The notes below the pieces were generated by a model. The model saw nothing but the letters and a program-made list of their open reading frames with translations, was not told the DNA's origin and ran no database searches. Shown here piece after piece: positions 6,634 to 34,436 of a DNA stretch of 60,193 bases (positions are counted from its first letter, which is position 1; every line of letters begins with the position of its first letter). The stretch is from IMG/VR virus record IMGVR_UViG_3300038557_000055, positions 1-60,193 of that record; one strand, given 5' to 3'. A program made the translations under genes and the position numbers. This DNA is from a virus.

Positions 6634-6978
6634 TCAGTTATCGGATAGATACCGGTCGCGGAATTTTCGGTTAGCCTCGATCTCGGCGCCGTGCTTGCGA
6701 TATGCCACTGATGATGAAGCCGCTGGTGGAGACGGTCGTGCAGGGGTCTCCGAAGACTTCTGCATCTGCTGCAGGACGTAGTTCGCGAGGCCGATCAAAG
6801 CTACCAAGGCGAGCACCATCAGAGCCACCCCTTCGGTAGAAAGGTTCATTGCCGTGATGGCCCATACGGCTGAGCCTACGGCAATGACAGTGCCGAGGAT
6901 CCTGCCGATCGCTCCGATGACGATCGACGATCCGAAGAGCAGGATGGCCACGATGAGAAGAAGCAGGAAGACAGCCAT
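6634..6978 (-). CDS. Membrane protein co-transcribed with the repressor
   Basis: A 114-residue protein with two or three N-terminal membrane segments (residues 2-24, 28-45 and 50-68) and a polar, proline-rich cytoplasmic tail. It starts at ATG 6978 in a TGATG overlap with the repressor gene, so it should be made from the prophage state. Small membrane proteins expressed with CI commonly block superinfection. That is inference from location; nothing in the sequence proves it. Confidence 0.7.
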   Translation of the reverse strand: MAVFLLLLIVAILLFGSSIVIGAIGRILGTVIAVGSAVWAITAMNLSTEGVALMVLALVALIGLANYVLQQMQKSSETPARPSPPAASSSVAYRKHGAEIEANRKFRDRYLSDN

Positions 6979-11264: not shown

Positions 11265-11536
11265 GAGCCGCGATAACTCCCGAGCAGATCCTCGCCGGCA
11301 TCACTGGCAGCGACCATGCCGCACTGATCTTGAGACGGATTTGCGCCTCCAATCCAAGGCCGGTCACCCGAAAAGTTCTCATGGAGGGTGCTGGCATCTC
11401 GGTCGAACGAGAGGGGCCGAGATCGGCCTACGCCGCATTCTACTGGTACGTCGAGCGGGTGAACGACGAACTCCGGCGTCTCGGCTGGCGTGTCGCGGAC
11501 CATGGCGGCGACCATTTCTTCCTGATGCGAAACTGA
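11261..11536 (+). CDS. Small winged-helix-like protein
   Basis: A 91-residue protein with an ATGA overlap at its start. The C-terminal part (YWYVERVNDELRRLGWRVAD then DHFFLMRN) resembles the last helix and wing of winged-helix domains common in small rhizobial phage proteins. It probably binds DNA; no partner is evident. Confidence 0.65.
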   Translation: MRAAITPEQILAGITGSDHAALILRRICASNPRPVTRKVLMEGAGISVEREGPRSAYAAFYWYVERVNDELRRLGWRVADHGGDHFFLMRN

Positions 11537-20214: not shown

Positions 20215-21423
20215 TCAGCCCTCCGCCCGGCCAGTGTCGCCACAGGCTGCAATCAGAACCCTGCCGTTTTCGGTTGCGATAACCCCTTCGCCTGGGTGGC
20301 TCGCCAGATAGGTGTTAGCCTCCTCGTCTGAGCTGAAAGACGCAGTCACGTCGAAGGTTCGGCCCATCGTGCGATACGTGGTCGGTGCTTCCTGCTGGGC
20401 CTCGGCCTCGTTGACTGGCGCTGGCTCGTCGTCGACTTGCAGCGCCTTGATGACCTCTTGGGCGGCCCAGCGCCCGCCATTGTTCAGGTTCCGTTGCCAC
20501 GCGCCCTCGGATGGAGCCCAACGGAAGCCGTTCCGCTTCAGGAGATCGCGCGTTGTGGCATCGGGCTTCCCGGAGAACAGGATTTGAACGCGAGCGGCCT
20601 CGCCGTTCTCGACAACCTCGACCGCTCCGGCTGTGGTGTTGTGGGTTCGCGAGACGCGCCCCCGGGCGCGGTTACGCTCTATGTTGGCCAGCCGAGCCTC
20701 AAGCCGTTTGATCTCTGCCAGCTTGCCCGAAAGGGCATAAGAGCCATAGCCGCGCCCCATCCATTTATGGGCCGGAGCTACAACCGGCCTTGCGCGCTCC
20801 TCACGCCAGCCGGTGGCGTCAACCACGGCTTGCACCATGGCCTCTTCGCCTTCCTTCAACTTCGAGCGTATCGCGGCGTTGACCACCTTCATGACAGAGT
20901 GGGCGCTCTTGTGAGCCTCGATTTCGGCTCGCAACAGCTCTGGAGCATCCGGGTTGTTGGCGCGGATCGCATCACCGGGCATGCCGTGCGGAAATGCTGT
21001 GCGTTCCACCGCCTTGCGAGCCGCCCCAACGTGCTCGCTCAACGCCTTGTAGGCGTTGTCGGCCCAATCCATTCGCTTGCGGTTGCGATCTGTCGGGAAC
21101 CGCGCCGGCCCGACGATGAACCACGACATGCAGCGGGAATCCATCGCCCATGCCCGGCGTGTCATCGAGACGTGACGGGATGTGAAACGCTCCAGTTCCG
21201 CCGAAACGTCGAGAGTGCCGCCCATGCCAACCATTAGGCCGACGTGCTCGGCAAAGCCGTTGAGGCGCGCTGCCAGGTCTGACAGTTCGTGGCGTGCTCG
21301 CCTGTCAGGAAAGTGGGACAGAGCGTCCCAATTGTTCTCGATTTGCTTCGTGGTCAGCGTGAGCCCAAAGCCGCCGGCGGACACGGTTAAACAGTCCTCG
21401 TGGAAAGATGCAATTGCGGTCAT
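20215..21423 (-). CDS. DUF3560-like protein
   Basis: A 402-residue protein starting MTAIASFHED, with AAAGGAT upstream. The middle (residues 120-300) is a conserved-looking helical region with KWMGRGYGSYALSG and an Arg-rich helix LEARLANIERNRAR. Residues 320-365 read LFSGKPDATTRDLLKRNGFR then WAPSEGAWQRNLN, a segment typical of DUF3560-type proteins of plasmids and phages. The family's role is not established. It is the largest gene of the array. Confidence 0.7.
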   Translation of the reverse strand: MTAIASFHEDCLTVSAGGFGLTLTTKQIENNWDALSHFPDRRARHELSDLAARLNGFAEHVGLMVGMGGTLDVSAELERFTSRHVSMTRRAWAMDSRCMSWFIVGPARFPTDRNRKRMDWADNAYKALSEHVGAARKAVERTAFPHGMPGDAIRANNPDAPELLRAEIEAHKSAHSVMKVVNAAIRSKLKEGEEAMVQAVVDATGWREERARPVVAPAHKWMGRGYGSYALSGKLAEIKRLEARLANIERNRARGRVSRTHNTTAGAVEVVENGEAARVQILFSGKPDATTRDLLKRNGFRWAPSEGAWQRNLNNGGRWAAQEVIKALQVDDEPAPVNEAEAQQEAPTTYRTMGRTFDVTASFSSDEEANTYLASHPGEGVIATENGRVLIAACGDTGRAEG

Positions 21424-21512
21424 AGGATTGATCCTTTCGGGCATAGCTCCGCCGTGGCGCGTGACGCGCTCAAACAGGCGGGAACGGTTTCAGTTTGTGG
21501 GTTAGCGGATGC

Positions 21513-22316
21513 TCAGGCCGATCGCGGCCCGTCGGTCTTTCTTTCTACTGGCGCAAAGCCGGCATCGCGGTTGTGTGCCTTCACCAGCGCTTCAACAGTG
21601 AAAGGCTCGCACTGGCCGTGCAGTTCCATCACCAGTTGCGCACCACCCGGCCGGCCGTCTCCTTCGGTGTAAATTGCAGTTCCTCGGCATTCCCAAGGCT
21701 CGGGAGAGCGCCCGCGCACTCGCTCACGAAGGGCAAAGAACAAGTCGGTTCGCCCCTCCAGATCGTCGGTGGCGTTGTCGATGAACCACCACAGCGCATC
21801 GACAAGCGGCATTTCCGCAAGCATTGCCTCGTATGGTCCTGGCACGTGCTCGGCGATGGTGCGCGCGGCTTTCGCGCGCGGCTTGTAGTGGTGATAAAGC
21901 CAGGTTGGGCCGAGGTCGTTGCGGATGCCATGCAGCGCGCTCCCCATGCCTTCCACCGGCCCGCGCCATATTCTGGCGTTGTACCAGTAGATATCGGAGA
22001 GCTGAGCTCTCCACGTCCGGCAGCCGCGTGAGCGGTTGCGCTGGTAGCGGTGAGCCTCGGCGAATGCTTCAAGCGATTGGTGCTCGAATTCGGTTAGGGC
22101 GCGGAAGACGTCCCGCCATTTGAGCCCGAATACCTCGGCGCAGAAATCGGCGCTCGTCGTCCCGTCTTCCTCTTCGGGCAGGCGGACGGAGACTTGATTG
22201 CGGCCGTTGTCCGGCCAGCTATACACGATGTATTTCAAGCCCCGTGAGTTTGTCACCTCGTCACCCATTTCGACCGGGCGACCGTCCTTGTGGAAGAGAT
22301 TTCGCATTTTGCCCAT
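21513..22316 (-). CDS. Hypothetical protein
   Basis: A 267-residue protein starting MGKMRNLFHK. The N-terminal 60 residues (GDEVTNSRGLKYIVYSWPDN) look like a small beta-barrel. The remainder is rich in Trp and Arg without a recognisable motif. The start follows a GGCTGACCCATG junction. Confidence 0.6.
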   Translation of the reverse strand: MGKMRNLFHKDGRPVEMGDEVTNSRGLKYIVYSWPDNGRNQVSVRLPEEEDGTTSADFCAEVFGLKWRDVFRALTEFEHQSLEAFAEAHRYQRNRSRGCRTWRAQLSDIYWYNARIWRGPVEGMGSALHGIRNDLGPTWLYHHYKPRAKAARTIAEHVPGPYEAMLAEMPLVDALWWFIDNATDDLEGRTDLFFALRERVRGRSPEPWECRGTAIYTEGDGRPGGAQLVMELHGQCEPFTVEALVKAHNRDAGFAPVERKTDGPRSA

Positions 22317-22319
22317 GGG

Positions 22320-22496
22320 TCAGCCCTCCGCCTTCGGATTGATCCCGTGATCCTCGCAAATGTGGCGAAGCGCGCGCGGGTTCTCGATTGGGTAGCGTGC
22401 GCCGCTATCTTTCGTCGGGTTCCACCACTTGCCGAATGCGCCGTGAACCCAGCCCGCCGCACGTACAACGCGTTCCAAATCATTCAGCGTTTGCAT
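22320..22496 (-). CDS. Small hypothetical protein
   Basis: A 58-residue protein (MQTLNDLERVVRAAGWVHGA at the start, ending NPKAEG). GGAGGG in the last codons of the upstream gene precedes its ATG, and its own last codons do the same for the next gene. This symmetry is strong support that it is real. Function unknown. Confidence 0.65.
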   Translation of the reverse strand: MQTLNDLERVVRAAGWVHGAFGKWWNPTKDSGARYPIENPRALRHICEDHGINPKAEG

Positions 22497-22498
22497 GG

Positions 22499-22831
22499 TC
22501 AGCCCTCCGCCTTGGCGATGGCTGCCGCGACAAGTTCGCGTGCCTTGATTTTGTTCGCCGTTGCCTTCTCTGACCCACGAGCGGAGAGAGCCCGCATGGT
22601 CGGCCAGTCGGCCAGCAATTCCTCAACTGCTTTCAGCGTAGCCAGCATGTCGGACGCGCCGGCGAACAGATGGGCGCGGGCGATTGCTTCGGCCTTCCGC
22701 TTGGCTTCGTCCGGATCGCCGTAACCTTGTGTCCAGCCTACTTCGGCGACGAAGATGTCGCCTGACCAAATCACGGCACGAGCGCAGTATCGATGATCGC
22801 CAGTGTCCTTAATCTCCACGGTGTAGGTCAT
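22499..22831 (-). CDS. Hypothetical protein
   Basis: A 110-residue protein starting MTYTVEIKDT with GGAGATATCGAA before ATG 22831. The N-terminal 45 residues are beta-rich and the rest helical, ending AIAKAEG. No family is recognised. Confidence 0.65.
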   Translation of the reverse strand: MTYTVEIKDTGDHRYCARAVIWSGDIFVAEVGWTQGYGDPDEAKRKAEAIARAHLFAGASDMLATLKAVEELLADWPTMRALSARGSEKATANKIKARELVAAAIAKAEG

Positions 22832-22897
22832 TTCGATATCTCCATAGGCAAGCCGGCGCGCACCTGGCACGGCAACGGCTGCAAGGGTTTCGGGCTT

Positions 22898-23083
22898 TTA
22901 GGTGCGCAGGAAGTCGATGCGCGTTTTGGGGTTGGCGATGATGTATTCCGCCAGTTCCCGTTCGGTCATCAACGAACCGACACGACGGCCGTTTTGCATT
23001 ACATAGCCGTCATCGATACGGCTGGTGAAGTCGTTGGCGCGAATGACCAACAATGGTTCTGCTGTGCTTTGTGTAGCGCCCAT
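22898..23083 (-). CDS. Small hypothetical protein
   Basis: A 61-residue protein starting MGATQSTAEP at ATG 23083, preceded by GTGAGGG that overlaps the end of the next gene upstream. The C-terminal helix (MTERELAEYIIANPKTRIDF) is typical of small phage proteins, but no function is known. Confidence 0.6.
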   Translation of the reverse strand: MGATQSTAEPLLVIRANDFTSRIDDGYVMQNGRRVGSLMTERELAEYIIANPKTRIDFLRT

Positions 23084-23090
23084 CGTGCCC

Positions 23091-23198
23091 TCACAGTTCC
23101 AGGAACATACGCTTTGCAGCGATGCGGGCGCGGCGGTCGTCGCGGCGGATACGGCCAGCGGGCCGGTCGGTGAACTGAATACGTTCGGTCTTGCGCAT
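23091..23198 (-). CDS. Very small arginine-rich protein
   Basis: A 35-residue protein (MRKTERIQFTDRPAGRIRRD at the start) with eleven arginines. AAAGGAT stands nine bases before its ATG, identical in style to neighbouring starts. It may bind nucleic acid through charge alone. Confidence 0.55.
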   Translation of the reverse strand: MRKTERIQFTDRPAGRIRRDDRRARIAAKRMFLEL

Positions 23199-23284
23199 TT
23201 CGATATCCTTTCTAGGACGTGCCACAATTGGCGGGTTGATCTAGCGACCATCGCAACGCCGCGCTGGCGGCGCTGAAAAAGAGG

Positions 23285-23584
23285 CTAGGGCAGGTCGTTG
23301 TGTGCGAACCGCGCGGAACCGACCTTGGCGATATTGGAAAGCGCGACGAGCTCCCCCTCCTTCCTGACATGCTCGCAATAGTCCGCTTCGCCGAACTGGC
23401 CCGTGCCAGCCGCTATGCGTTCCTCTTGATCATCCCAACGAACGCGGCCATGCGTCTTTGGCATTCCCTCATACGGGCCAAGATAGGTGCCACGGCGCTG
23501 GGGAGCCGAACCGGTGAACTGTCCGGTGTTGCGCAGGAAGGATGCGGCGAGGGCTATGCGGTCGCCTGCTATCAGCTTGGCCAT
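23285..23584 (-). CDS. Hypothetical protein
   Basis: A 99-residue protein starting MAKLIAGDRIALAASFLRNT. Residues 5-60 have the alternating pattern of a small beta-barrel (GDRIALAA, RRGTYLGPYE, HGRVRWDD). The start sits in a GCGCTGACCATG junction. Function unknown. Confidence 0.65.
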   Translation of the reverse strand: MAKLIAGDRIALAASFLRNTGQFTGSAPQRRGTYLGPYEGMPKTHGRVRWDDQEERIAAGTGQFGEADYCEHVRKEGELVALSNIAKVGSARFAHNDLP

Positions 23585-23586
23585 GG

Positions 23587-23772
23587 TCAGCGCTCCAGCT
23601 CACACACAACCGGGGCATGAGCCAGGTTGCGGCGTAGATCATTGGGAAGGTCGCGGGGCAGGGCACGCGCGGCCACGGCTTGATTGCAGTCGTCATAGGT
23701 AAGGCCGGTGTCCAGCATATAGGAATGGGGCTGGCCTGACATGAGCAGGTAGGCGACAAGGGCGAACTTCAT
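23587..23772 (-). CDS. Small secreted or anchored protein
   Basis: A 61-residue protein with a short hydrophobic N-terminus (MKFALVAYLLMSGQPHS) that looks like a signal peptide or anchor, and two cysteines in the remainder (DDCNQAV, VVCELER) that could pair in the periplasm. Function unknown. Confidence 0.6.
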   Translation of the reverse strand: MKFALVAYLLMSGQPHSYMLDTGLTYDDCNQAVAARALPRDLPNDLRRNLAHAPVVCELER

Positions 23773-23777
23773 TGCCG

Positions 23778-24056
23778 TCAACCGTTGTAGATGGTGGACG
23801 TATGGCCGAACGTGCCCGGTCCATGATCGAAGTAGGCAAGGACGCCCGCCGTATGCAGTTCGTCCATTGCGTCCAGCACAACACGGGTGCTTTCCATACC
23901 AGCATCCGGCAGGCCCATAACCTCGGCCATAGCAAGCCAGTTGATAAAGACTGCGTGCTGGTTGTCGCATGAAGGGCTGGCTGCTGAGTGGGTGGCGCAA
24001 TAGCCCATAAGCGCAACCGCGTGTGCAGATAGCGCGCTCTTAGCAATCGTGATCAT
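23778..24056 (-). CDS. First gene of the leftward small-gene array
   Basis: A 92-residue protein starting MITIAKSALS with GGAGAT before the ATG. It has a hydrophobic N-terminal helix and a possible helix-turn-helix-like middle (residues 38-75), which I would not press. It is the promoter-proximal gene, about 340 bases from the operator-bearing control region. Confidence 0.6.
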   Translation of the reverse strand: MITIAKSALSAHAVALMGYCATHSAASPSCDNQHAVFINWLAMAEVMGLPDAGMESTRVVLDAMDELHTAGVLAYFDHGPGTFGHTSTIYNG

Positions 24057-24396
24057 CGGGTGATCTCCCGGCCTGCATGGGTTTCACAATTGAAACGCCT
24101 TCCGCCTTGGCCGTGTGTCATCGCTGACAGTCACAGAATAGCCGAACCGGAATAGGTGTCAATCCATTTCGGATAAAAATTTGCATTTTGTGACACGGCA
24201 ACTGAGCCAAGAACGGCACGGGCGCACGATAGCAAGAGCCATGCCAAGTGGACGGCCAGAGAGACAAGGGAAGGGCAGGCGGGACAAGCGCTCGAGGCCC
24301 CTACCGGGTGTCGGGTTAAAAAGTTGAGAGTAGCTACAGGACCGGCGTGCGCAGTGAAATTTTCGCGAGTGCAGAAAACACCCTTTTGCAAAATTG
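24057..24396. other. Leader of the leftward array, no gene seen
   Basis: No frame on either strand has a ribosome site and plausible composition. On the minus strand a possible promoter is TACAAT (about 24399-24394) with TTGCAT 19 bases upstream, reading into the small-gene array. It overlaps the first operator dyad. Confidence 0.4.
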
Positions 24397-24431
24397 TATC
24401 CGTAGCGGATTGACAATATGCAAACTGGATA
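24397..24431. promoter_or_regulatory. Third operator pair, divergent promoters
   Basis: Two dyads of the same form as at the CI/Cro region, TATCCG-TAG-CGGATT (24397-24411) and TATGCA-AAC-TGGATA (24417-24431), have centres 20 bp apart, close to two helical turns. A TTGACA -35 (24410-24415) lies between them for rightward transcription into the accessory operon; its -10 is unclear. The minus-strand promoter of the small-gene array overlaps the left dyad. The CI-like or Cro-like protein probably acts here. Confidence 0.7.
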
Positions 24432-24451
24432 GTAGCGTCGGGGCACATCAG

Positions 24452-24655
24452 ATGAAGGTCACTGAGATGCCTGACCAACTGCAACGGAAGTCATCGGAAC
24501 TGCCCAGCCGAGCACCGCTGGATTACGTCGAGATCTCGCCCTGGAGTGAGAAAGCCGCCACCGCGGAGATGGATTTCGACGGCTGGGATTTGTTCTTCCT
24601 CTGCCTCGCCTTCCTGATGATCCTCGGCGGCGTGGCCATCTGGCTCAGCTACTAG
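24452..24655 (+). CDS. Small membrane protein, first gene of the accessory operon
   Basis: A 67-residue protein starting MKVTEMPDQL with one C-terminal membrane span (LFFLCLAFLMILGGVAIWLS). It is the first gene after the third operator pair. Tail-anchored topology is likely. Function unknown; a short downstream gap holds the palindromic hairpin before the radical SAM gene. Confidence 0.65.
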   Translation: MKVTEMPDQLQRKSSELPSRAPLDYVEISPWSEKAATAEMDFDGWDLFFLCLAFLMILGGVAIWLSY

Positions 24656-24684
24656 CGCCGCCATCCTCCCAATCGAAACCACCT

Positions 24685-24714
24685 CAACCTTGTTCCTGCG
24701 ATGGAACGAGGTTG
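24685..24714 (+). promoter_or_regulatory. Palindromic leader hairpin, copy 2
   Basis: CAACCTTGTTCC (24685-24696) pairs with GGAACGAGGTTG (24703-24714) around TGCGAT. The 11-bp core and wobble position are identical to those of the hairpin at 4789-4824. It ends 23 bases before the radical SAM start codon and close to its GGAG ribosome site. Confidence 0.7.
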
Positions 24715-24737
24715 GCCGAACACATCCGGAGATATCC

Positions 24738-25673
24738 ATGTTCCACGACGTCAAGATCATCGAGAGCGCCGAAGACAACGTCAGCAAGTACGTCTTCACC
24801 GGCGACAACGCCGTCGCCGAGGCGGTGCTCTACCGGTATCCGGACTATGCGACCCGGACTGTCATTTGCTGCTCGACGATGAGCGGATGTCCCGTCGGTT
24901 GTCGCTTCTGTGGCGCTGGCGACCACTTCGTTCGAAGCTTCTCTGGCGATGAGATCGTTGCCCAGGTTGATCGATGCATCGCAGATACGGGCGTCGATCC
25001 GGCCAAGATGAAGCGGCTGCAGATCATGTTCATGTCGATGGGCGAGCCGTTGCTCAACCCAAGGGGCATGCAGGATGCTCTTCGAGCGCTCTATGCCAAA
25101 TACCCCAACGCAGCGCTGCTGATCAGCACGATCGGTCCAGACGTCGACTACGATTGGGTGAGAGATATCAGTGTCGAGATCCCAACGGTCGGTCTTCAGT
25201 TCTCGGTACACAAGTCCAGCGATGCCGAACGCGACATGCTCATTCCGTTTCGGAAGAAGCTTCCACTGAATTTCATCGCTTACGAAGGTCAGGAGTGGTC
25301 GAAGGAGACGGGGCGGAAGCCGTTCTTCAACTATTGTGCCGGAGATGACAATTCTTCAGTCATCGACGCCGACCGGCTTCGCGAGCGGTTCGATCCCGCG
25401 ATCTGGAATGCAACGGTCAGCGTGATCTGCGAGCGCAATGAGGGCCTACCGGCCAAAAACGAGCACCAGATCAAGCTCGCTGCCGATTTCGCATCGCTGC
25501 TCGTCGAACGAGGCTTCGATGTTCGCGTGTTCGATCCTGCCGGCCAGGACGACATCGGCGGCGGATGCGGCCAGCTCTGGTTTGTCCAGCAGTGGATGCG
25601 AGACCATCCCGAGCTTGCTCATCCCAGCATCGGGCATGGGTTGCCGAGCGTCCACACTCCGGCCGTAGCGTGA
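24738..25673 (+). CDS. RlmN/Cfr-like radical SAM methyltransferase
   Basis: A 311-residue protein; GGAG seven bases before ATG 24738 fixes the start. The iron-sulfur motif CPVGCRFC gives C51, C55 and C58. C44 stands seven residues before C51, exactly where RlmN has its resolving cysteine. MGEP follows at 101-104, then a FSVHKSSDAERDMLIP block like RlmN's SLHA region. GGGCGQL supplies C277, matching the methyl-carrying cysteine of RlmN/Cfr. The N-terminal RNA-binding domain of RlmN (about 90 residues) is absent. It probably methylates an adenine C2 or C8 in rRNA or tRNA through a methyl-cysteine. The substrate is unknown. Confidence 0.88.
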   Translation: MFHDVKIIESAEDNVSKYVFTGDNAVAEAVLYRYPDYATRTVICCSTMSGCPVGCRFCGAGDHFVRSFSGDEIVAQVDRCIADTGVDPAKMKRLQIMFMSMGEPLLNPRGMQDALRALYAKYPNAALLISTIGPDVDYDWVRDISVEIPTVGLQFSVHKSSDAERDMLIPFRKKLPLNFIAYEGQEWSKETGRKPFFNYCAGDDNSSVIDADRLRERFDPAIWNATVSVICERNEGLPAKNEHQIKLAADFASLLVERGFDVRVFDPAGQDDIGGGCGQLWFVQQWMRDHPELAHPSIGHGLPSVHTPAVA

Positions 25674-25681
25674 GGTGCCGC

Positions 25682-26005
25682 ATGGCCAAGTTCCGCAAGG
25701 GTGATGTCGTTTCTCTCGAGGTGATCGTCGAGAGCCATTTCCAAGGAAACGACGTTCGGCTTCGGCTGGAGGCCGGATACCAAGACATCTATGCCAAAGC
25801 AGACCAGATCAGAATGGTCCGACCGGATATCAAGGTCGAAGACACCATCGAATGGGAGGTCGGTGGGATCATCAATAGCGGCGAGGTCATTGGTGTCGCT
25901 GACGATCACGCATGGGTGAAGTATGGCGACGGAAATTTTGCGACCGTTGCGCTGAAGTTTGCGAGCCGAGTTGATCTCCCGGCCCCTGAAGAGGAGGTCG
26001 CGTGA
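25682..26005 (+). CDS. Hypothetical protein after the radical SAM gene
   Basis: A 107-residue protein starting MAKFRKGDVVSLEVIVESHF, eight bases behind the radical SAM stop. Two similar beta-rich halves (residues 1-50 and 51-95) suggest a duplicated small barrel of the KOW/SH3 kind, which might bind RNA. That is a shape-based guess; no family is recognised. Confidence 0.6.
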   Translation: MAKFRKGDVVSLEVIVESHFQGNDVRLRLEAGYQDIYAKADQIRMVRPDIKVEDTIEWEVGGIINSGEVIGVADDHAWVKYGDGNFATVALKFASRVDLPAPEEEVA

Positions 26006-26280
26006 TGGGCAACGCGGAAGCCATGAAGATTTTCGGGGTTCTCGGTGGGCCTGTCCATCCAACGGAATGGCGCTTGCCTGATGGTGGGTCGATCACGTCC
26101 CCAGGCGTAGCGCTGCGCGATTGGTTTGCAGCTCACGCATCCGACCAAGATGTTGAGCATCATCGCGAACTCACCCTCGGCACCGACGGCTCGACCTTTT
26201 GGAAGCGGAGCAGGGAAGAGGCTCGCTTTGCGTTCGCGGACGCCATGCTCGCTGAGAGTAGGAAGGTCGGTGCGTCATGA
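26005..26280 (+). CDS. Small phage protein with LRDWFAA motif
   Basis: A 91-residue protein with a TGATG start. Residues 30-45 read SPGVALRDWFAAHAS and the end has FADAMLAESRK. This pattern of small phage proteins (LRDYFAA...ADAML) is common, but its function is unknown. In this copy the middle is longer than usual. Confidence 0.65.
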   Translation: MGNAEAMKIFGVLGGPVHPTEWRLPDGGSITSPGVALRDWFAAHASDQDVEHHRELTLGTDGSTFWKRSREEARFAFADAMLAESRKVGAS

Positions 26281-26675
26281 CAAAACGCTACACTCGCGCC
26301 GACTTCGATCCCTTCATCGGGGACGGCACATCAAGGAACAAGCCACAGCCGCTCCCGAACGCCGTAGATGCCGATCCGCTCCGCTTCCTCAATGACCTTG
26401 CGGCGCGCGGTCACATGATGGAGCCGGTTTGGGGCTACGCGATGCTCCCTGCCGAGAACCGGACACAATGGACACAGTTCTTCCTCCTCTATGACGCCAT
26501 GGGCGGCGGTGGTGGATATGCCGTGACCTACGGCGGCAACAAACCGATTGTCCGCCAGTTCACAATCTGCCGGCATGAAAAGGTCATGCATTCGGATGCT
26601 CGGCCCGAGTATGGCTGGCGACCAGGCCACTGCAAGCACTGTGGCATGGACATGTCGGTCGACAGCTCCGGGTGA
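26277..26675 (+). CDS. Hypothetical protein with C-terminal zinc-ribbon-like motif
   Basis: A 132-residue protein starting MTKRYTRADF in an ATGA overlap. The C-terminus has ICRHEK and CKHCGMDMS, which could form a zinc site with Cys and His ligands. The rest is unassigned. Confidence 0.6.
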   Translation: MTKRYTRADFDPFIGDGTSRNKPQPLPNAVDADPLRFLNDLAARGHMMEPVWGYAMLPAENRTQWTQFFLLYDAMGGGGGYAVTYGGNKPIVRQFTICRHEKVMHSDARPEYGWRPGHCKHCGMDMSVDSSG

Positions 26676-26678
26676 TCC

Positions 26679-27122
26679 ATGCCGATCAAACCGGAGAACA
26701 TGTCGAAGTATCCAGGCGGCTCGACCAAGTCGCCGGAGTGGCGCGCGATCAGGAAGCGGATCGGCCAGCGCTCAGGCTGGAAGTGCGAGAGGTGCAAGGC
26801 GCCGAACCTCAAGATGATCGCCCGCGGATCGTACAACGGTCGCGAGGCTTACATGGTGGTCGAAACCAGCGAGATCTTCTGCGCTGAGACCGGTCTCGCC
26901 ATGGGCAAGATAAAGCGGTCGGACTTCAACGCTCGCAAGGTGCTGAAGGTCATCCTGACCGTGGCGCACCTCAACCACGACGAGACCGATAACCGGGATG
27001 AGAACCTGGCTCACCTCTGCCAGCGGGATCATCTCCGGCACGACCACAAGCAACACATGACGAACGCGGCGCGCACCCGGAGAAATCGGGGCGGCCAGAT
27101 GGATTTGGAGGACATGCTATGA
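26679..27122 (+). CDS. HNH endonuclease-like protein
   Basis: A 147-residue protein. CERCKAPN (near residue 37) starts the zinc knuckle, and VAHLNHDETDNRDENLAHLC then QRDHLRHD provide the histidines and second cysteine of an HNH fold. It may be a free-standing nicking enzyme or a structural HNH protein. It is one of three HNH-like genes in the prophage. Confidence 0.8.
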   Translation: MPIKPENMSKYPGGSTKSPEWRAIRKRIGQRSGWKCERCKAPNLKMIARGSYNGREAYMVVETSEIFCAETGLAMGKIKRSDFNARKVLKVILTVAHLNHDETDNRDENLAHLCQRDHLRHDHKQHMTNAARTRRNRGGQMDLEDML

Positions 27123-27691
27123 CTGAATTGACCCTGGAAGCGCTCGGACTCGATCAGGAGAAGCTTTCCGAAAAGCTGGTCGACCGACTGGCGAAAAACG
27201 TGCTCACGAGCATCGGTTACGATCCCGATGGAGACGAATGGTTCGGAACGAGCCCGTTCGCGAACCGGCTCAACGAATTGGTGAGGGCTCGGCTCGATCA
27301 GGTCGTAAACGACTTGGCCGACAAGCACGTGTTGCCTCGTGTGAACGAGATGGTCGAAGGGCTGGTGCTGCAGGAGACCAACAAGTGGGGAGAGAAGGTG
27401 GGCAAAACTCTCACCTTCATCGAATACCTCACCCAGCGTGCCGACGCCTACATGTCAGAGCCGGTGAGCTACAACGGCAAGACGAAAGCCGAAGACAGCT
27501 ACAACTGGCGCCAGTCGACCACGCGTATCGCGTACATGGTCGACCAGCATCTCCAATATTCGATCTCGCGTGCCATGGAGCAGGCGATGAAGGATGCGAA
27601 CACCAGCATCGCCACGGGTCTCAAGGGCGCCGTCGAGAAGTCCCTCGGGGAAGTTCTGGAGAAGCTGAAAATCGATGTGAAGACGAAGTGA
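27119..27691 (+). CDS. Hypothetical protein
   Basis: A 190-residue protein overlapping the HNH gene by four bases. Mostly helical and amphipathic, with a central Tyr/Trp-rich segment (residues 110-140). No domain is recognised. Possibly an oligomer, judging by heptad-like leucines. Confidence 0.65.
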   Translation: MTELTLEALGLDQEKLSEKLVDRLAKNVLTSIGYDPDGDEWFGTSPFANRLNELVRARLDQVVNDLADKHVLPRVNEMVEGLVLQETNKWGEKVGKTLTFIEYLTQRADAYMSEPVSYNGKTKAEDSYNWRQSTTRIAYMVDQHLQYSISRAMEQAMKDANTSIATGLKGAVEKSLGEVLEKLKIDVKTK

Positions 27692-27698
27692 GGGCAGG

Positions 27699-28184
27699 AT
27701 GATCCACCTTCCTCAGATATTCGTCGACATGGACGGCGTCCTGGCCGACTTCGACACCGGGTATGAGCAGCACTTCGGAATTCGGCCGAGCAAGTCTGAT
27801 GACAACGTCGATTGGGCGTTGGTTCGTCGGACAGACGGGTTCTACAGCAACCTGCCTCCTATGCCCGATTTCGAGCTGCTGTGGGCCGGCCTCATTCCCT
27901 TCTCACCGATCATCCTCACTGGTGTGCCGAGCTCGGTCGCAGAGGCCGCTGAAAACAAGCGCGCATGGGTTCGGAAGCATATCGGTCCAGATCAGCCGAT
28001 GATCGCGTGTCCATCGAAGGACAAGAGCCTTCACATGCGTCGGCCGGGCGACGTGCTGATCGACGATTGGGAGAAATACCGTTCCCTGTGGATCGGACGG
28101 GGAGGCAGGTGGATCACCCATATCTCTGCGGAAGCGTCCCTCGAACAGCTCGATGTGGTTCTCGTCGAGGCGGTGGCGCCATGA
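27699..28184 (+). CDS. 5'(3')-deoxyribonucleotidase-like HAD phosphatase
   Basis: A 161-residue HAD-fold enzyme. Motif I is VDMDGVLADFD (nucleophile and acid aspartates, residues 10-20), motif II is ILTGVPSS, motif III is the lysine in CPSKDKSLH, and motif IV is VLIDDWEKY. This is the set of the bacterial and phage 5'(3')-deoxyribonucleotidases, which dephosphorylate deoxynucleoside monophosphates. It may adjust nucleotide pools or remove host nucleotides during phage DNA synthesis. Confidence 0.85.
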   Translation: MIHLPQIFVDMDGVLADFDTGYEQHFGIRPSKSDDNVDWALVRRTDGFYSNLPPMPDFELLWAGLIPFSPIILTGVPSSVAEAAENKRAWVRKHIGPDQPMIACPSKDKSLHMRRPGDVLIDDWEKYRSLWIGRGGRWITHISAEASLEQLDVVLVEAVAP

Positions 28185-28333
28185 CCCTATTCCGCGTCCA
28201 CTACAACGACGGCAGCACGATGGATGTCGATGCTGACCGACCCGACAACGCCCGCAAGACAGCTCTGGAGACCCGCAAGGGCATCATCACGAAGGTCAAG
28301 GTGGTGAAGGAGAAGGCCGAGGCCGATGGCTAG
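28181..28333 (+). CDS. Small hypothetical protein
   Basis: A 50-residue protein (MTLFRVHYNDGSTMDVDADR at the start, then NARKTALETRKGIITKVKVV). ATGA overlap before, eight-base overlap after. Beta-alpha-beta pattern; no function known. Confidence 0.65.
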   Translation: MTLFRVHYNDGSTMDVDADRPDNARKTALETRKGIITKVKVVKEKAEADG

Positions 28334-29690
28334 AGATAGACGCCCACCCGCAACGCGTTCCCCCTATGAAATGATTGGCAGATCGATGTTCGAAAAAATT
28401 CAGAAGCCACAGGAAACGAAGCAGGATCACGTGCAGGGGTGCGGCGATCCCAATTGCCAGATTTGCATGCCGAAGGGCGGCTCTGGAGGAGGGAGCAAGG
28501 TCTCTGGTGACGATGTTTCGTGGATCGTCCCCGATGGGAGCATCGAGGATGTGGTTGCCAGGGAACTTCTCTTCAGAGCCGGGAGGCTTACCTTCAGTGG
28601 AGTGGATACATCCGACCCGAAGCGCGCAGCGAGGGATAAGGAACGAGAGCTCCGCCGAAAAGTTGAGCAGTATTTGCTCAAGACACAGCATTCGCTGGCA
28701 TGGGACGATGTGATCGGAAACGAGGCAGCCCGCACGGCCCTCGTCGAAGCCATTGAACATCCGCTGGTGCACAAGGATCTCTATGCTCACTACCAGAAGA
28801 AGCCGACGAAGGGCGTCTTGCTCTACGGAGCGCCGGGCAACGGTAAGACCATGTTCGGCAAAGCTGCAGCTTCGATTCTCGCCAAGCTCAACAAGCAAGC
28901 CGGCGACGTGACGATGCTGTCGATCAAGGGGCCTTCGATCCAGAGCCCTTATGTCGGTGTCACCGAAGGGATCATTCGGGACATCTTCGCCTACGCGGCT
29001 GCTTACAAGGCACTGCATGACGTGCCTCTGGTCGTCTTCATCGACGAGGCAGACTCTATCCTTCCCAGCCGCGACGGGTCGAATAGCAGGCGAGCTCTTC
29101 CATGGGAGGAATCCAACGTCGCGACGTTCCTTGCCGAGATGGACGGCCTCGACGAATCCGGCGCGCTCGTGATCCTCGCGACCAACCGACCAGAGTCCAT
29201 CGACGCCGCGATCCTTCGGGACGGTCGATGTGACCGGAAGATCAAGGTCGAGCGGCCCGACGAGGAGGCATCACGGCAGATCATCCTGCGCAATCTCGTC
29301 CACGTGCCTCTGTCACCAGGTGAAACGGCCGAGGAGTGCGCCACCTATGCCGCTGGCTACCTGTTCGACTGGTCTCATCGCATTGCGAGGCTGAAAACCG
29401 ACAAGGGACCAGATTTCTTGACGCTCGGCCATATCGTGAGCGGGGCAATGGTGGTTGGCTTGGTCGAGGTCGCCAAGGGTGTCGCGTTCCGGCGCGATCT
29501 GGCGGCTGGCGGTGTACCGACAGGCATCTGCAAAGACGATATCCGCGTTGCGATCGACACGGTTTTCGAGCAGAACCGGGGCCTCACTCACGAGTACGCC
29601 CTTCGCGACTACATCGAACGCCACGACATCAAGAAGATGTCAATGGAGTTCGTGCGGGTCGAGTATCCCGAACAGCAAGTGATCCACTGA
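28326..29690 (+). CDS. AAA+ ATPase, FtsH/ARC-like
   Basis: A 454-residue protein. Residues 39-47 form a small cysteine cluster (CGDPNCQIC). The AAA+ core has Walker A GAPGNGKT (168-175), a pore-loop-like segment SPYVGVTE (207-214), Walker B VVFIDEAD (236-243), sensor 1 ATN (285-287) and the second region of homology with arginines at 298 and 301. This is the arrangement of ring-forming unfoldases such as FtsH and ARC/Mpa. No protease domain is present. It may remodel host or phage protein complexes. A J-domain gene follows directly. Confidence 0.85.
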   Translation: MARDRRPPATRSPYEMIGRSMFEKIQKPQETKQDHVQGCGDPNCQICMPKGGSGGGSKVSGDDVSWIVPDGSIEDVVARELLFRAGRLTFSGVDTSDPKRAARDKERELRRKVEQYLLKTQHSLAWDDVIGNEAARTALVEAIEHPLVHKDLYAHYQKKPTKGVLLYGAPGNGKTMFGKAAASILAKLNKQAGDVTMLSIKGPSIQSPYVGVTEGIIRDIFAYAAAYKALHDVPLVVFIDEADSILPSRDGSNSRRALPWEESNVATFLAEMDGLDESGALVILATNRPESIDAAILRDGRCDRKIKVERPDEEASRQIILRNLVHVPLSPGETAEECATYAAGYLFDWSHRIARLKTDKGPDFLTLGHIVSGAMVVGLVEVAKGVAFRRDLAAGGVPTGICKDDIRVAIDTVFEQNRGLTHEYALRDYIERHDIKKMSMEFVRVEYPEQQVIH

Positions 29691-29702
29691 GGGGAGGCGG
29701 AC

Positions 29703-30338
29703 ATGAGTGTTTCAGCATATCCGCTTCATTGGCCGGTTGGTCGGCCGCGCAAGGAAAACCGCAAACGAGCGGCCTTCGGGAAGAGGGTGAAAAACGGCAA
29801 GTGGGATGAGACCAAGGATCTCACGGTTGCCGATGCGATCTCACGGCTCCAGCAGGAAATCGACCGGCTCGGTGCTCGTCTGCCGGTGATCTCCAGCAAT
29901 CTGGAGCCTCGGCTCGATGGGCTTCCAAGATCAGGGCAATCGGAACCTCGCGACCCGGGCGTTGCCCTCTATTTCGATCTGAACGGCAAGCCGCACTGCA
30001 TGCCCTGCGATACCTATGACCGGGTAGCGGACAACATCGCAGCCATTGCCAAGCACATCGAGGCGACAAGGGCGATTGATCGGTTTGGTGTCGCGACGGT
30101 GGCCGAGATGTTCACGGGCTTTGCAGCTCTGCCGGCACCGGGTGCGAAACGAGGCTGGCGCGAAGTGATGGACTTCATGCCAGGTGATGACCCTCAGATC
30201 ACAGTCGCCGTAATCGAAAGCCGTTATCGTCGCTTGGCTTCCACTCGGCACCCCGATAGGCCCGGCGGTTCCCACGACATGATGGCCGAACTGAATGCCG
30301 CGCGCGACGAAGCGCTGAAGGCGGTTCGCAATGACTGA
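29703..30338 (+). CDS. J-domain protein
   Basis: A 211-residue protein of a family common in alphaproteobacterial phages (opening VSAYPLHWPVGRPR, middle ISSNLEPRLDGLPRSG, then ALYFDLNGKP). The C-terminus carries a J-domain helix II/III with the signature HPD (RRLASTRHPDRPGG). J-domains stimulate Hsp70 ATPase, so it may direct host DnaK to a phage target. Next to the AAA+ ATPase this hints at a remodelling pair, but no direct link is shown. Confidence 0.85.
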   Translation: MSVSAYPLHWPVGRPRKENRKRAAFGKRVKNGKWDETKDLTVADAISRLQQEIDRLGARLPVISSNLEPRLDGLPRSGQSEPRDPGVALYFDLNGKPHCMPCDTYDRVADNIAAIAKHIEATRAIDRFGVATVAEMFTGFAALPAPGAKRGWREVMDFMPGDDPQITVAVIESRYRRLASTRHPDRPGGSHDMMAELNAARDEALKAVRND

Positions 30339-30453
30339 TCGCGGTATCCGCTTTTCCCCAGCCATGGTTCGCGAATTGCTGGCGGGCAGTCCGTGGGTTG
30401 TCGTCGTCTCGTTTACGGTCGAGCAGCGCAACATTGATCAGGCGCACCCATGA
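30331..30453 (+). pseudogene. Truncated remnant of an ASCH-like gene
   Basis: A 40-residue frame. The first 20 residues (MTDRGIRFSPAMVRELLAGS) match the opening of phage ASCH-domain proteins (RGIIFSAPMVRALLAGRKTQ from memory); the similarity then stops and the frame ends. It overlaps the genes on either side (8 and 4 bases). It may still be translated, but the ASCH fold cannot form. Confidence 0.5.
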
Positions 30454-30803
30454 GCAGCGATCGCATTCCGTGCTGCGTGCCGTTCTGCCGGCGCACCCGC
30501 CGAGATGATGGAAGCTTCTCGGAATGGATTTGTGGAAAGCATTGGGCACTGGTCAGCCGCAAGGCTAAGCTGATGAAGCGCCGTAGCGAGGCAGCATACG
30601 ACGCCGCGAAGCTGGAATGTGAAGAGATATCGAGCGAAGGCGATGAGTTCGCCAGGACGCAAGGCGGCGGCATTGCCGTCTCGCAAGAGATCATCGACCG
30701 CCTTCGGGTGGCTGCCGCCAAGCACCAAAGGAAGTGGGCTCAGGCCGGTCGGGCATGGGATCGATGCAAGCGTCAAGCGATCGAGCGGTCAGGGGGCATC
30801 TGA
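30450..30803 (+). CDS. Hypothetical protein with zinc-finger-like N-terminus
   Basis: A 117-residue protein. CCVPFCRRT and WICGKHW give four potential zinc ligands in the first 33 residues; a long basic helix follows. Small phage proteins of this form are frequent, but no role is established. Confidence 0.65.
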   Translation: MSSDRIPCCVPFCRRTRRDDGSFSEWICGKHWALVSRKAKLMKRRSEAAYDAAKLECEEISSEGDEFARTQGGGIAVSQEIIDRLRVAAAKHQRKWAQAGRAWDRCKRQAIERSGGI

Positions 30804-31087
30804 TGCGAGACCTATTCGGCCCGGTTCCTCGCAAGCCGCCGCTCATTCGGATGCGAGCCATGGACCATGGATCCGCGCCGGGACTAATGCCCGGATGGAA
30901 AACGACGAATGGCGCTCACTTCCGGTGCTGGCGCTGCAATCATGATGCCGGCTGGCATTTCAACATGAGCGATGGCGAAGTCCGTCGCGGCATTCCATGC
31001 CCTGTCTGCAACGGCGCTCCGACCGAGCCTAGTTTAACCGAACCAAGTTCTCGACACTCGGGTCGAAAGCCTTCAGCCACCGGTTGA
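30803..31087 (+). CDS. Hypothetical zinc-ribbon-like protein
   Basis: A 94-residue protein with a TGATG start. Two CxxC knuckles (CWRC near residue 42 and CPVC near 66) suggest a zinc ribbon. Its last 59 bases overlap, tail to tail, the end of the minus-strand gene. Confidence 0.6.
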   Translation: MRDLFGPVPRKPPLIRMRAMDHGSAPGLMPGWKTTNGAHFRCWRCNHDAGWHFNMSDGEVRRGIPCPVCNGAPTEPSLTEPSSRHSGRKPSATG

Positions 31088-31382
31088 TTTTGCCCATCGT
31101 TTCGAACGGAGGAGGGGACATCAGCCTGGTGTCCTCGGCCTTCCGCCATCCATCACCGACTATGCCGCAGATTGGGATGGCCATGAACTGGTCGACCGAG
31201 CGCGGCAGCCCATCGGTCACAAACCGAAACTCATAGTCCGGAAAACGCTTCCCCATGTGGACGCGCAGCCGGTCGACCACAGCCTCATCGTCGTAACGCG
31301 GATCAATAGGCAGAACGACGATGAACTGGCTCGCCTCGACCTGTCCGAGCCGGGTTTTCTTCGTGACGGCGACAATACTCAT
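31029..31382 (-). CDS. Lone minus-strand gene between early and late regions
   Basis: A 117-residue protein starting MSIVAVTKKTRLGQVEASQF, with GGAGG ten bases before ATG 31382. The frame is open for a further 83 codons upstream, but that part is AT-rich and lacks a ribosome site. The C-terminal half (FPDYEFRFVTDGLPRSVDQF) looks globular and well composed. I do not recognise it. Its position and the inverted repeat upstream suggest a regulator of the late operon or a cargo gene. Confidence 0.6.
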   Translation of the reverse strand: MSIVAVTKKTRLGQVEASQFIVVLPIDPRYDDEAVVDRLRVHMGKRFPDYEFRFVTDGLPRSVDQFMAIPICGIVGDGWRKAEDTRLMSPPPFETMGKINRWLKAFDPSVENLVRLN

Positions 31383-31508
31383 AACTGCAATGCCTCCAGC
31401 TTTGTTCTTTTTCTGTTCTCGTTTTACAACGAAGGAAAAATCGAGTCCAGAGGCACGAATCACAGCTTTTGTGAACGATGTTTTGCGATTGTCTTCAAAT
31501 AGATAACG

Positions 31509-31556
31509 GTCAACAATGGTGAACGGTTTGTTTTGAGGTGTTCGCTCATTGTTGAC
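31509..31556. promoter_or_regulatory. Inverted repeat in AT-rich spacer
   Basis: GTCAACAATG (31509-31518) and CATTGTTGAC (31547-31556) are perfect 10-bp inverted arms, extended inward by GAAC/GTTC (31521-31524 and 31540-31543). The surrounding 180 bases are unusually AT-rich for this window. It could be a binding site for a regulator acting between the early and late regions. Confidence 0.5.
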
Positions 31557-31884
31557 GATCTCTGAATTTTCGCGCAACTTGCATGCGACTCGGGGCAGTG
31601 CGCCCAGAGGAAACTTCGCCAATCTCCGCACTCCACCCTCAATGCCGGCTAGAGGTTCATAGCTGCTGCTCGCTCCTGAGAAGAGCCCGCGCGGGGAGGC
31701 GGTGGCGGGTAGCTAGTCCCTCCCTGTCGTCGTCAAGGATAAGCGGGAAAGCTGCGGCGCCGGTAAATCATCAGTTCGGACGGCAGCCTGGAAAGACGAA
31801 GACAGGTAACGCTATGATCCAGCGCGCCGAGCTGGGGAGCCGCCAAGGTGAGCAGCGGGAGTTGGACGCCCCGCCCGTCCGTGA
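31557..31884. other. Non-coding stretch before the packaging genes
   Basis: No coding frame here has good support. This is where a cos site or late-promoter elements would be expected, directly before the HNH-terminase cluster, but I cannot identify either from the bases alone. Confidence 0.4.
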
Positions 31885-32349: not shown

Positions 32350-32713
32350 GGGTGGAGCGGTTCATTTCCTGCCTTCGTTCGAGGAAATTCCGCCGTCGAA
32401 CATCCCGCTCCTCGAGTCCGGGAACAAGGTCTATCAGGAGTGGTGCCGGACCCTCATAAAGTCCGGTCTCCTCACGCTGAAGACCCGCGAATACGTCGAG
32501 ATGCTGGCCATCGCGACGGACGACATCGCCTACGCGATCGAAAAGGGTAAGCGCCCGACGCGACAGGCGATGGAAGCCAAGCGCGCCGCGATGATGAAGC
32601 TGGAAAAGCTCGATGCCAACCAGTCCATCGTCACGCCGGCCGGCGGTGAGCAAGCTTATTCAGCGTTTGGGTTCGCGCGACGAGCTCGAAACCGGCGCCA
32701 CGGTAAAAATTGA
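32309..32713 (+). CDS. terS: Terminase small subunit (P27-like)
   Basis: A 134-residue protein. Residues 45-110 (NKVYQEWCRTLIKSGLLTLK and the following helices) have the helical pattern of P27-family small terminases. It recognises phage DNA and presents it to the large subunit. It overlaps the HNH gene by 41 bases and the large subunit by 68. Confidence 0.75.
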   Translation: MQTKEKTEQSATNEGGAVHFLPSFEEIPPSNIPLLESGNKVYQEWCRTLIKSGLLTLKTREYVEMLAIATDDIAYAIEKGKRPTRQAMEAKRAAMMKLEKLDANQSIVTPAGGEQAYSAFGFARRARNRRHGKN

Positions 32714-34436
32714 GGACAAGGAGTACCCCGATTACGTCGGTATCGGCGTCGCCTATGCCGAACTGATCGCCAATGAGCAGATTCCGGCCTGCCGGTATCT
32801 CATCATGGCGGCCAAGCGGTTTTTGGCGATGTACGCCGAGGCCAAGGCCGGCGCGGGCGACATCTACTGGTCCGACGAGCACGCCATCGAGCCGTGCGCC
32901 TTCATCGAGACGCTGACCCACGTCAAAGGCGTCCTGGCGAAGGAGAAGATCCGGCTCGAAGCGTGGCAAATCTGGGTCGTTGTCGCGATCTACGGTTTTC
33001 GCTGGACCGACACGGGCGATCGCGTCGTCAACATTGCCCAGCTCGAGATCACTCGAAAGCAGGGCAAGTCGCTTCTGGCCGCCGGCATCGCGCTCTACGA
33101 GCTCGGCCCGAACGCCTACATCGGCGACGACCTCTACATCATCGCTCCCACCGCGGCCCTGGCACAGAAGGTGCTGGAGCCGATGAAGAAGATGGTGGAG
33201 TACAACCCGTCTCTGAAGGAGCATTACGGCATCGTCGCTCTGAACGAGCGGATCGATGTAGCCCAAACCGAGAGCTACGCGACGATCCTGTCCTCATCGG
33301 GCAAGAAACAGGATGGTCACGACCCAAAGGTGGTGATCGCGGACGAATTCCACTCGCTGCCGGCGTCGATCTTCAACGTCATGAAGTCATCGCAAGGCGC
33401 TCGGCCGGAGAGCTTGTTCCTCGAGATCGGATCGGCGGGGTACAACGCCTTCGGTGTGGGCTGGGACGAGCGAAACCTCGGCATAGAGGTCTTGGAGGGC
33501 AAGCGCAGCCGGCCGGAGCTGTTCGTAGCGCTCTGGACCATCGATCCGGAGGATCACGGCAACTGGCGCAGCGAGCGCGTCATCCGGAAGTGCAACCCGA
33601 ATTTCGGCATCTCGACCCCGAAGCGGAAGGTTCTTCAGGAAGTCGAGGAAATCTACACAAATCCGCGGAACAAGAACGAGACTCTGCGCACCAGGTTCAA
33701 CATCTGGGGTCTTGGCGAGAGCCGGATCATTTCAGCGGACCAGTGGGCCTCTTGTGAGCTGAAGGGCATCACGCGGAAGGACTTCAAGGGCGATTCCTGC
33801 TGGATCGGCGTGGATCTTGCGACCCGAAACGACATGGTTTGCTGGGTTGCGGAGTTCGAGCTCGACGATTTCGTCGTTTTCTTCGCAAAACACTATGTTC
33901 CGGAGCATGGACCTTGGCGTGATGACGAAGAGGTCCGCGATATCTACCAGAAATGGCACGAAGACGGGATTTTGACCTTCACGCCCGGCTCGTTCCACAC
34001 CTACACGGAAATTGAGGCTGATCTGCTCGATCTCTGCGACTTCCACAAGGTCGAGATGATCGCGATCGACGACCGTGAAGCCAACGCCATGATGGGCGCC
34101 CTGGCGAAAAAGGGGAAGCCGGTCGTTTCGTTCCGGAAGAACGCCACGAACTACTCTGAGCCGTGCAAGGACATCATCGCCCGGGCGGTGGGGAAGTCGA
34201 AGGGGCTGGCCCACGACGGCAACGAGGTCTTGGCCTGGAACGTCGAGAACGTGATTGGCGGCTTCAATACCGCCGAGCTCATCCTTCCGAAGAAGGTCAC
34301 TGAGCACTCGCCGATGAAGATCGACGGGTTCGACGGCATGTGCATGGCTCACGCCTGCTACATGCAGCAAGTCGACCCGAAGAAAGTCATGAAGCCCCAG
34401 CCGATGATTGCTCGCGGCATGCGCGTGTTGGACTGA
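32646..34436 (+). CDS. terL: Terminase large subunit
   Basis: A 596-residue protein if GTG 32646 is used; an ATG at 32613 in the same frame is the alternative. ATPase motifs are EITRKQGKS (Walker A-like, near residue 134) and VVIADEFH (Walker B, near 229). The nuclease half begins with GVDLAT (near 388) and has MIAIDDREA further on. The arrangement is that of HK97/Terminase_1 proteins. It pumps DNA into the prohead and cuts the concatemer. Confidence 0.93.
   Translation: MSKLIQRLGSRDELETGATVKIEDKEYPDYVGIGVAYAELIANEQIPACRYLIMAAKRFLAMYAEAKAGAGDIYWSDEHAIEPCAFIETLTHVKGVLAKEKIRLEAWQIWVVVAIYGFRWTDTGDRVVNIAQLEITRKQGKSLLAAGIALYELGPNAYIGDDLYIIAPTAALAQKVLEPMKKMVEYNPSLKEHYGIVALNERIDVAQTESYATILSSSGKKQDGHDPKVVIADEFHSLPASIFNVMKSSQGARPESLFLEIGSAGYNAFGVGWDERNLGIEVLEGKRSRPELFVALWTIDPEDHGNWRSERVIRKCNPNFGISTPKRKVLQEVEEIYTNPRNKNETLRTRFNIWGLGESRIISADQWASCELKGITRKDFKGDSCWIGVDLATRNDMVCWVAEFELDDFVVFFAKHYVPEHGPWRDDEEVRDIYQKWHEDGILTFTPGSFHTYTEIEADLLDLCDFHKVEMIAIDDREANAMMGALAKKGKPVVSFRKNATNYSEPCKDIIARAVGKSKGLAHDGNEVLAWNVENVIGGFNTAELILPKKVTEHSPMKIDGFDGMCMAHACYMQQVDPKKVMKPQPMIARGMRVLD

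Follow-up and report, generated by a model that had tools for sequence, protein, structure and literature searches.

The gene at positions 24738-25673 of the window (the whole 60,193-nucleotide stretch of viral DNA analysed here) encodes a short radical SAM (rSAM) protein with the fold of RlmN and Cfr. With a probability of approximately 0.5, this protein is an RlmN-type methylsynthase that acts on a metabolite of the NAD pathway. The known activity of RlmN and Cfr is RNA methylation, RlmN being the 23S rRNA m2A2503 and tRNA m2A37 methyltransferase and Cfr the 23S rRNA m8A2503 methyltransferase. If the proposed function is correct, RlmN-type chemistry would have been redirected to a metabolite by a widespread phage clade that is without RNA recognition and recurs in NAD-synthesis clusters, and cofactor modification would represent a new layer in the phage-bacteria NAD arms race.

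The gene, its product and the surrounding phage genes

The gene and the codons and motifs of its product are listed below. Residues are numbered in the 311-aa translation, and fractions refer to conservation in an alignment of 90 non-redundant members of the family.

24728-24731, + strand: GGAG, a Shine-Dalgarno-like site by sequence, just 5' of the rSAM gene
24738-25673, + strand: rSAM gene of RlmN/Cfr fold, ATG to TGA, 311 aa, without the N-terminal HhH-type RNA-binding domain
24819-24821, + strand: codon for E28 (equivalent to RlmN E105 and Cfr E91), invariant (90/90)
24867-24869, + strand: codon for C44 (RlmN C118, Cfr C105), the second catalytic cysteine, invariant (90/90)
24888-24911, + strand: CPVGCRFC, the [4Fe-4S] motif CX3CX2C (C51, C55, C58), invariant
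25038-25049, + strand: MGEP (residues 101-104, M101-P104), the SAM-binding motif, invariant
25335-25337, + strand: codon for C200, a cysteine conserved in the phage family (88/90) but not in RlmN or Cfr
25428-25430, + strand: codon for C231, an invariant cysteine of the phage family (90/90); Pro in RlmN, Arg in Cfr
25566-25568, + strand: codon for C277 (RlmN C355, Cfr C338), the methyl-carrying cysteine, in GGGCGQL (89/90, one gap)

It is apparent that the 311-aa protein contains the complete RlmN/Cfr catalytic set (E28, C44, C51/C55/C58, MGEP and C277). The residues named in the original prediction, which comprised all of these except E28, were found in the translation exactly where they had been placed. 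The invariance of residues across the 90 homologues puts the status of 24738-25673 as a real gene far beyond chance. For the two nearest relatives, dN was 0.09-0.10, compared with a dS above 1.2 that is near saturation.

The following genes of the window are also relevant.

6978-7727, - strand: CI-like transcriptional repressor, as in a temperate phage (phrog_4, E=2.7e-26)
13190-14674, + strand: DnaB-like replicative helicase
25682-26005, + strand: next gene 3' of the rSAM gene, on the same strand, 107 aa, with a Shine-Dalgarno-like GAGGTG
27699-28184, + strand: 5'-nucleotidase (NT5C)-like gene, part of the gene run that includes the rSAM gene (Pfam PF06941, E=8.9e-6)
32613-34436, + strand: terminase large subunit, which marks the window as phage (phrog_9, E=9.7e-114)

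Terminase, tape measure and tail fibre genes confirm the phage origin that had been proposed for this DNA, and a DnaB helicase and a RecE-like exonuclease are also present. As supposed in the original prediction, a repressor gene (CI-like) is present, which may control the rSAM gene, and the phage is therefore probably temperate. The rSAM gene is situated in an early-gene run that includes an HNH endonuclease and the NT5C-like nucleotidase. It was also observed that the region 20215-31631 is high in GC, with long ORFs on both strands, and that several genes 3' of the rSAM gene in this region (107-190 aa) are without an informative family match.

Distribution of the family

A scan of viral contigs revealed relatives of the protein in at least 135, of which 80 were kept, and cultured Stenotrophomonas, Salmonella, Vibrio and Aeromonas phages contain homologues at 46-61% identity. 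In bacterial genomes the family is rare: 34 loci were found in 84,980 species genomes, and a class-wide search found it in 1 of 395 genomes of one class and 1 of 296 of another. No description of the family was found in a literature search on phage RlmN-like or radical SAM proteins and NAD, a search that was thin on subscription journals.

Two database records deserve comment. The homologue of Stenotrophomonas phage BUCTxx99 (L149, 5992-6951; OR529408.1) is annotated as a 'prohibitin family protein', apparently a misannotation. The sequence labelled Acinetobacter phage MD-2021a (CAKLQH020000017.1) contains iscX, ndk, rlmN, rodZ, gcpE and hisS, and looks like bacterial chromosome.

Relationship to RlmN and Cfr

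The protein scored 35.2 bits against the radical SAM model PF04055 (gathering score 29.5), which, together with the invariant CX3CX2C motif, places it in that superfamily. The NCBIfam RlmN model TIGR00048 gave 92 bits (E=3.6e-26), below its equivalog cut-off of 290 bits, and the Cfr models TIGR04432 and NF000424 gave 67-71 bits (at most 70.8; E of approximately 1e-18 to 1e-19), below their cut-offs of 530-550 bits. All sequence matches in the PDB were to RlmN or Cfr, with the exception of one at E=0.36. An AlphaFold2 model of the protein (pLDDT 89, pTM 0.89) was compared with the PDB using Foldseek; the top 11 matches were all RlmN or Cfr (E 6e-16 to 1e-12, TMq 0.59-0.71), and the next matches, other radical SAM enzymes, were separated from these by a jump in E from 1e-12 to 1e-5. 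These results bear out the predicted kinship with RlmN and Cfr. In addition, the residues expected of an RlmN/Cfr class A methylsynthase (C44, C277 and E28) are kept in 89-90 of the 90 members. Among viral models, the second-best structural match (TMq 0.64) was a 302-aa radical SAM protein, B3FJU2, of the jumbo Pseudomonas phage 201phi2-1.

The window enzyme thus has in common with RlmN the fold, the CX3CX2C cluster, the equivalents of E105, C118 and C355, MGEP and the CGQ motif, at approximately 20-26% identity in structure alignments. It differs in its lack of the HhH domain, its replaced RNA-contact residues, its acidic core, its separate clade and the addition of C200 and C231. Cfr, which confers antibiotic resistance through m8A2503, has the same fold and catalytic residues; identity to plasmid Cfr is approximately 29%.

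The match begins at approximately position 70 of the RlmN model, in agreement with the earlier claim that the RNA-binding N-terminal domain is missing, and this domain is absent in all homologues of the phage family. No separate gene for it was seen upstream, where a 102-aa ORF is without a Pfam match; the end of that ORF's translation resembles a membrane helix. The original prediction had referred the question of grouping with RlmN, with Cfr or apart to a phylogeny. In the tree constructed here, the phage family groups apart from both, in a well-supported clade to which a clade of split proteins, described in the last section, is sister. The deeper branching order is unsure because the RlmN and Cfr branches are long. 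A housekeeping RlmN acquired from the host was rejected as an explanation on the basis of score, separate clade, missing domain and rarity.

Replacement of the RNA contacts

Residues were mapped by alignment with E. coli RlmN, eleven host RlmN-type proteins and Cfr, from sequence rather than from a docked structure, and the contacts of Cfr with rRNA (backbone and stem residues) were taken from PMC13001441. The RlmN residues at positions of phosphate, ribose and stem contact, T116, N172, R206, T209, N307 and R344, are replaced in the window protein by V42, Q95, A125, L128, S228 and F265, respectively. Such contacts are replaced in nearly all members of the phage family. In the window protein, the Cfr contacts W101, S103, S151, S153, R184, S187, N288, R327 and F330 are likewise not kept. 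Residues fixed in the phage family and not common to RlmN and Cfr are C200 (88/90), C231, Q95, M97, Q154, S228, R263 and F265. The replacement of the RNA contacts, taken together with the fixation of Q95, M97, Q154, S228, C231, R263 and F265, suggests one conserved, different pocket. The mean net charge of the core was -8.0 (sd 3.9) in 40 phage members, compared with -0.2 in 13 RlmN and Cfr proteins.

These data also bear on the suggestion that a prophage copy might matter for Cfr-type antibiotic resistance. That suggestion is not favoured, given scores below the Cfr cut-offs, the replaced Cfr RNA contacts and a position apart from Cfr in the tree, and there is less reason for concern that the window gene is a prophage-borne Cfr-type resistance gene.

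NAD genes in the vicinity of the rSAM gene

Neighbouring genes, three on each side of the rSAM gene, were clustered for 91 non-redundant loci. The commonest neighbours were NMNAT (11 loci) and NAMPT (10 loci), and smaller clusters represented nicotinamidase, NAD synthase, nicotinate phosphoribosyltransferase, NadD and Prs. A core NAD gene was found within 2 kb of the rSAM gene in 20 of the 91 loci, and none in the other 71. The density of NAD genes per 100 kb in successive 2-kb bins was 10.2, 2.7, 2.3, 1.4 and 0.5 (binomial p 4e-10, a nominal value because the sequences used to seed the NAD models came mostly from the vicinity of the rSAM gene and the loci are phylogenetically related). Large phages keep metabolic genes in islands, and this was counted against a role in NAD metabolism. 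A profile scan of the window's own 60 kb recognised no NAD gene.

The identities of the neighbours were supported by Pfam and NCBIfam models: NAMPT_N (E 9e-34), PncB (580 and 529 bits), NadE (860, 207 and 145 bits), NadD (127-142 bits), Prs (412 bits) and an NrtR-like protein (120 bits). Nicotinamidase neighbours scored 103 and 96 bits in L023 and L106, and more weakly in L049, L007 and L109; for the ORF scanned at L100, NCBIfam did not bear out the PncA label. In the converse search, around 80 viral NAMPT loci, an RlmN-like rSAM gene was found within 6 kb in 6, in every case no more than 450 bp away. Representative arrangements are as follows.

L035, L047, L059 and L060 (large phages): NAMPT and NMNAT beside the rSAM gene
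L084 (Vibrio phage 495E54-1): Prs and NAMPT beside the rSAM gene
L007: NadE-rSAM-NMNAT-PncA
L106 (Ornithinimicrobium murale): PncB-PncA-rSAM-NrtR-like
L109, 5926-12079 (Bacillota MAG): compact cluster PncA-like-PncB-rSAM-NadE-rSAM2-NadD
L114, 1870-3291: Prs-rSAM-NadD/NadK, an apparent fusion of NadD and NAD kinase lying directly 3' of the rSAM gene

It is apparent that two routes to NAD are represented beside the relatives, NAMPT with NMNAT and PncA-PncB-NadD-NadE. The NadE of L109 is the only one in the Bacillota MAG to exceed the model cut-off. The second radical SAM protein of that cluster, at 10821-11522, is different from the RlmN-like one. Members linked to NAD genes do not fall together in the tree: well-supported branches force at least 10 changes, and four such members (L007, L023, L049 and L062) belong to the 28-row subclade of the window protein. 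Genes related to ADP-ribose (macro-domain and NADAR) were also observed to adjoin the rSAM gene in some large phages (L030, 10927-12210; L052; L074).

According to PMC12774641 and PMC13232231, phages use NARP pathways to rebuild NAD(+) against NAD-depleting immunity. The genes of NARP1 and NARP2 (Osterman et al. 2024, as covered in PMC12774641, PMC13232231 and PMC12028318) are of the same kinds (NAMPT/Namat, NMNAT and Prs) as those beside the rSAM relatives; a radical SAM component was not encountered for either pathway in the literature searched. A NARP-type combination (NAMPT/Namat with NMNAT or Prs) is present in L035, L047, L059, L060 and L084, and was not found in the 60-kb window.

Proposed reaction and its benefit

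The conserved residues suggest that the protein descends from the RlmN/Cfr enzymes and is a radical SAM methylsynthase that phages have put to a new use. The Glu equivalent to E28 has a role in adduct resolution in RlmN. If the radical methylation mechanism described in PMC13001441 applies, a first SAM would methylate C277, and a second, cleaved at the [4Fe-4S] cluster on C51/C55/C58, would yield the 5'-deoxyadenosyl radical that activates this methyl group. The resulting methylene radical would add to a purine-like ring at an sp2 carbon, and C44, with E28, would resolve the adduct, leaving the methyl group on the ring.

The substrate would be an adenine-containing small molecule rather than rRNA or tRNA, most likely NAD(+), or else ADP-ribose or ATP feeding NAD(+). 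An NAD-related metabolite is proposed because of the lost RNA contacts, the acidic core, the newly fixed pocket and the NAD neighbours, and NAD(+) is preferred because it is common to the NAMPT and the PncA-PncB-NadD-NadE routes; we infer the substrate, in other words, through guilt by association, and we infer the site of methylation and the benefit as well. The most likely benefit would be a methylated NAD pool that phage enzymes could use and host NAD-depleting defences could not, complementing phage NAD salvage. A specific role in evading NADases is a reasonable extension of NARP-type NAD rebuilding, although, as a claim in its own right, an unlikely one. An NAD-pathway substrate predicts an NAD species of +14 Da.

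Alternative functions

The original prediction proposed that the phage alters host 23S rRNA or tRNA. A truncated RlmN/Cfr could indeed act on tRNA or rRNA of the host or phage during infection, its RNA-binding domain having been replaced by a partner or being unneeded; the RlmN catalytic set is complete, the nearest characterised relatives are RNA methylases, and in Stenotrophomonas phages the rSAM gene lies within tRNA gene clusters. The RNA-backbone contacts are lost, however, the core is acidic, and the HhH domain is absent in all members. The hosts already possess RlmN (10 of 10 host genomes searched contain their own separate, full-length copy above the curated cut-off), and the family is linked to NAD genes instead. 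Moreover, the density of tRNA genes around the rSAM gene, determined with ARAGORN in successive 2-kb bins, was 5.4, 6.4, 2.9, 8.3 and 5.4 per 100 kb, with no decay with distance. RNA methylation is therefore not favoured, and appears unlikely. Loss of the known RNA contacts is, of course, compatible with a different RNA or with DNA, and the option of 'another nucleic acid', also raised in the original prediction, comes nearer than rRNA or tRNA, but the gene neighbours point to NAD metabolism.

A second alternative is modification of phage DNA or of a deoxynucleotide precursor, for example to a C-methylated adenine that blocks restriction. The HNH endonuclease and NT5C-like nucleotidase genes in the same early run as the window gene would fit this, as would a group of temperate phages (L008-L021) in which the rSAM gene adjoins a 3'-5'-exonuclease-like gene and replication genes. 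The neighbours include no conserved DNA-modification partner, however, the core is acidic, and the NAD linkage would not be accounted for, so that DNA modification is considered quite improbable. An anti-defence enzyme might instead act on NAD-derived immune signals or ADP-ribose marks (e.g. the cyclic ADP-ribose of Thoeris) rather than on the NAD pool. NADAR and macro-domain genes are close by in some loci (L030, L052 and L074), and a different phage anti-Thoeris enzyme lies inside a NARP1 NAD operon (PMC13232231). That linkage is weaker than the linkage to NAD-synthesis genes, however, and the bacterial NAD-synthesis clusters L106 and L109 fit the NAD pool better; action on immune signals or marks is accordingly rated very unlikely. 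Finally, the extra conserved C200 and C231, which are absent from RlmN and Cfr, might indicate an RlmN-fold radical SAM enzyme that does not methylate, and carries out, for example, repair or dehydrogenation of nicotinamide cofactors. Essentially every member nevertheless retains the two methylation cysteines and the equivalent of RlmN E105, which makes the absence of methylation a remote prospect.

A sister clade with a split protein

The sister clade includes sequences from Kehishuvirus, Vibrio phage D479, Moorella phage MTATph1 and dozens of viral contigs (approximately 60 viral loci). Examples of the split RlmN-like system, each consisting of an rSAM ORF and a small Cys-carrying ORF, are as follows.

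L145, 3833-4913
L146, 3854-4776
L087, 7833-8795
L237-L316, further loci with the same system

The split rSAM ORF stops before the methyl-cysteine region and has Gly for C118 in 62 of 62 non-redundant readable loci. A separate small ORF, mostly of 38-60 aa and often preceded by a Shine-Dalgarno-like site, bears GYDYAVAIATxAEIxxGAACGQLSII, with GAACGQL/M as the motif across split loci; 59 distinct sequences of it were obtained, and none was seen in seven loci. An NAD-related gene was found within 5 kb in 22 of 63 non-redundant split loci, with NAMPT as little as 8 bp away. Comparison of the split and window-family profiles gave E 3e-42 over 202 columns, and the best matches of the split model were the RlmN-type structure 6fz6 and Cfr. 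Seven split sequences were included in the tree, and four of these were fused computationally with their small partners, solely for the alignment.

Like the window enzyme, the split proteins are short and phage-borne, with an RlmN-type core, and they often adjoin NAMPT/NMNAT. In contrast to the window enzyme, which is a single piece with both cysteines, they have Gly in place of C118, and their methyl-carrying cysteine is located on a second, small protein. To our knowledge, the RlmN-type reaction is otherwise known only within one polypeptide, and the split sister clade would represent a natural two-component form of it. It is conceivable, though doubtful, that phages and a few bacteria make C-methylated NAD, on the adenine or the nicotinamide ring, as an alternative pool or an NADase-resistant cofactor, with the methyl group supplied in the sister clade by a separate carrier of approximately 40-60 aa.

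One small protein of Vibrio phage D479 contains two copies of the Cys module. The same kind of split is seen in Pectobacterium phage Arno162 (L148), where the rSAM ORF is at 3869-4741 and a small ORF bearing AACGQV lies a few genes 3', from 5259 onward.
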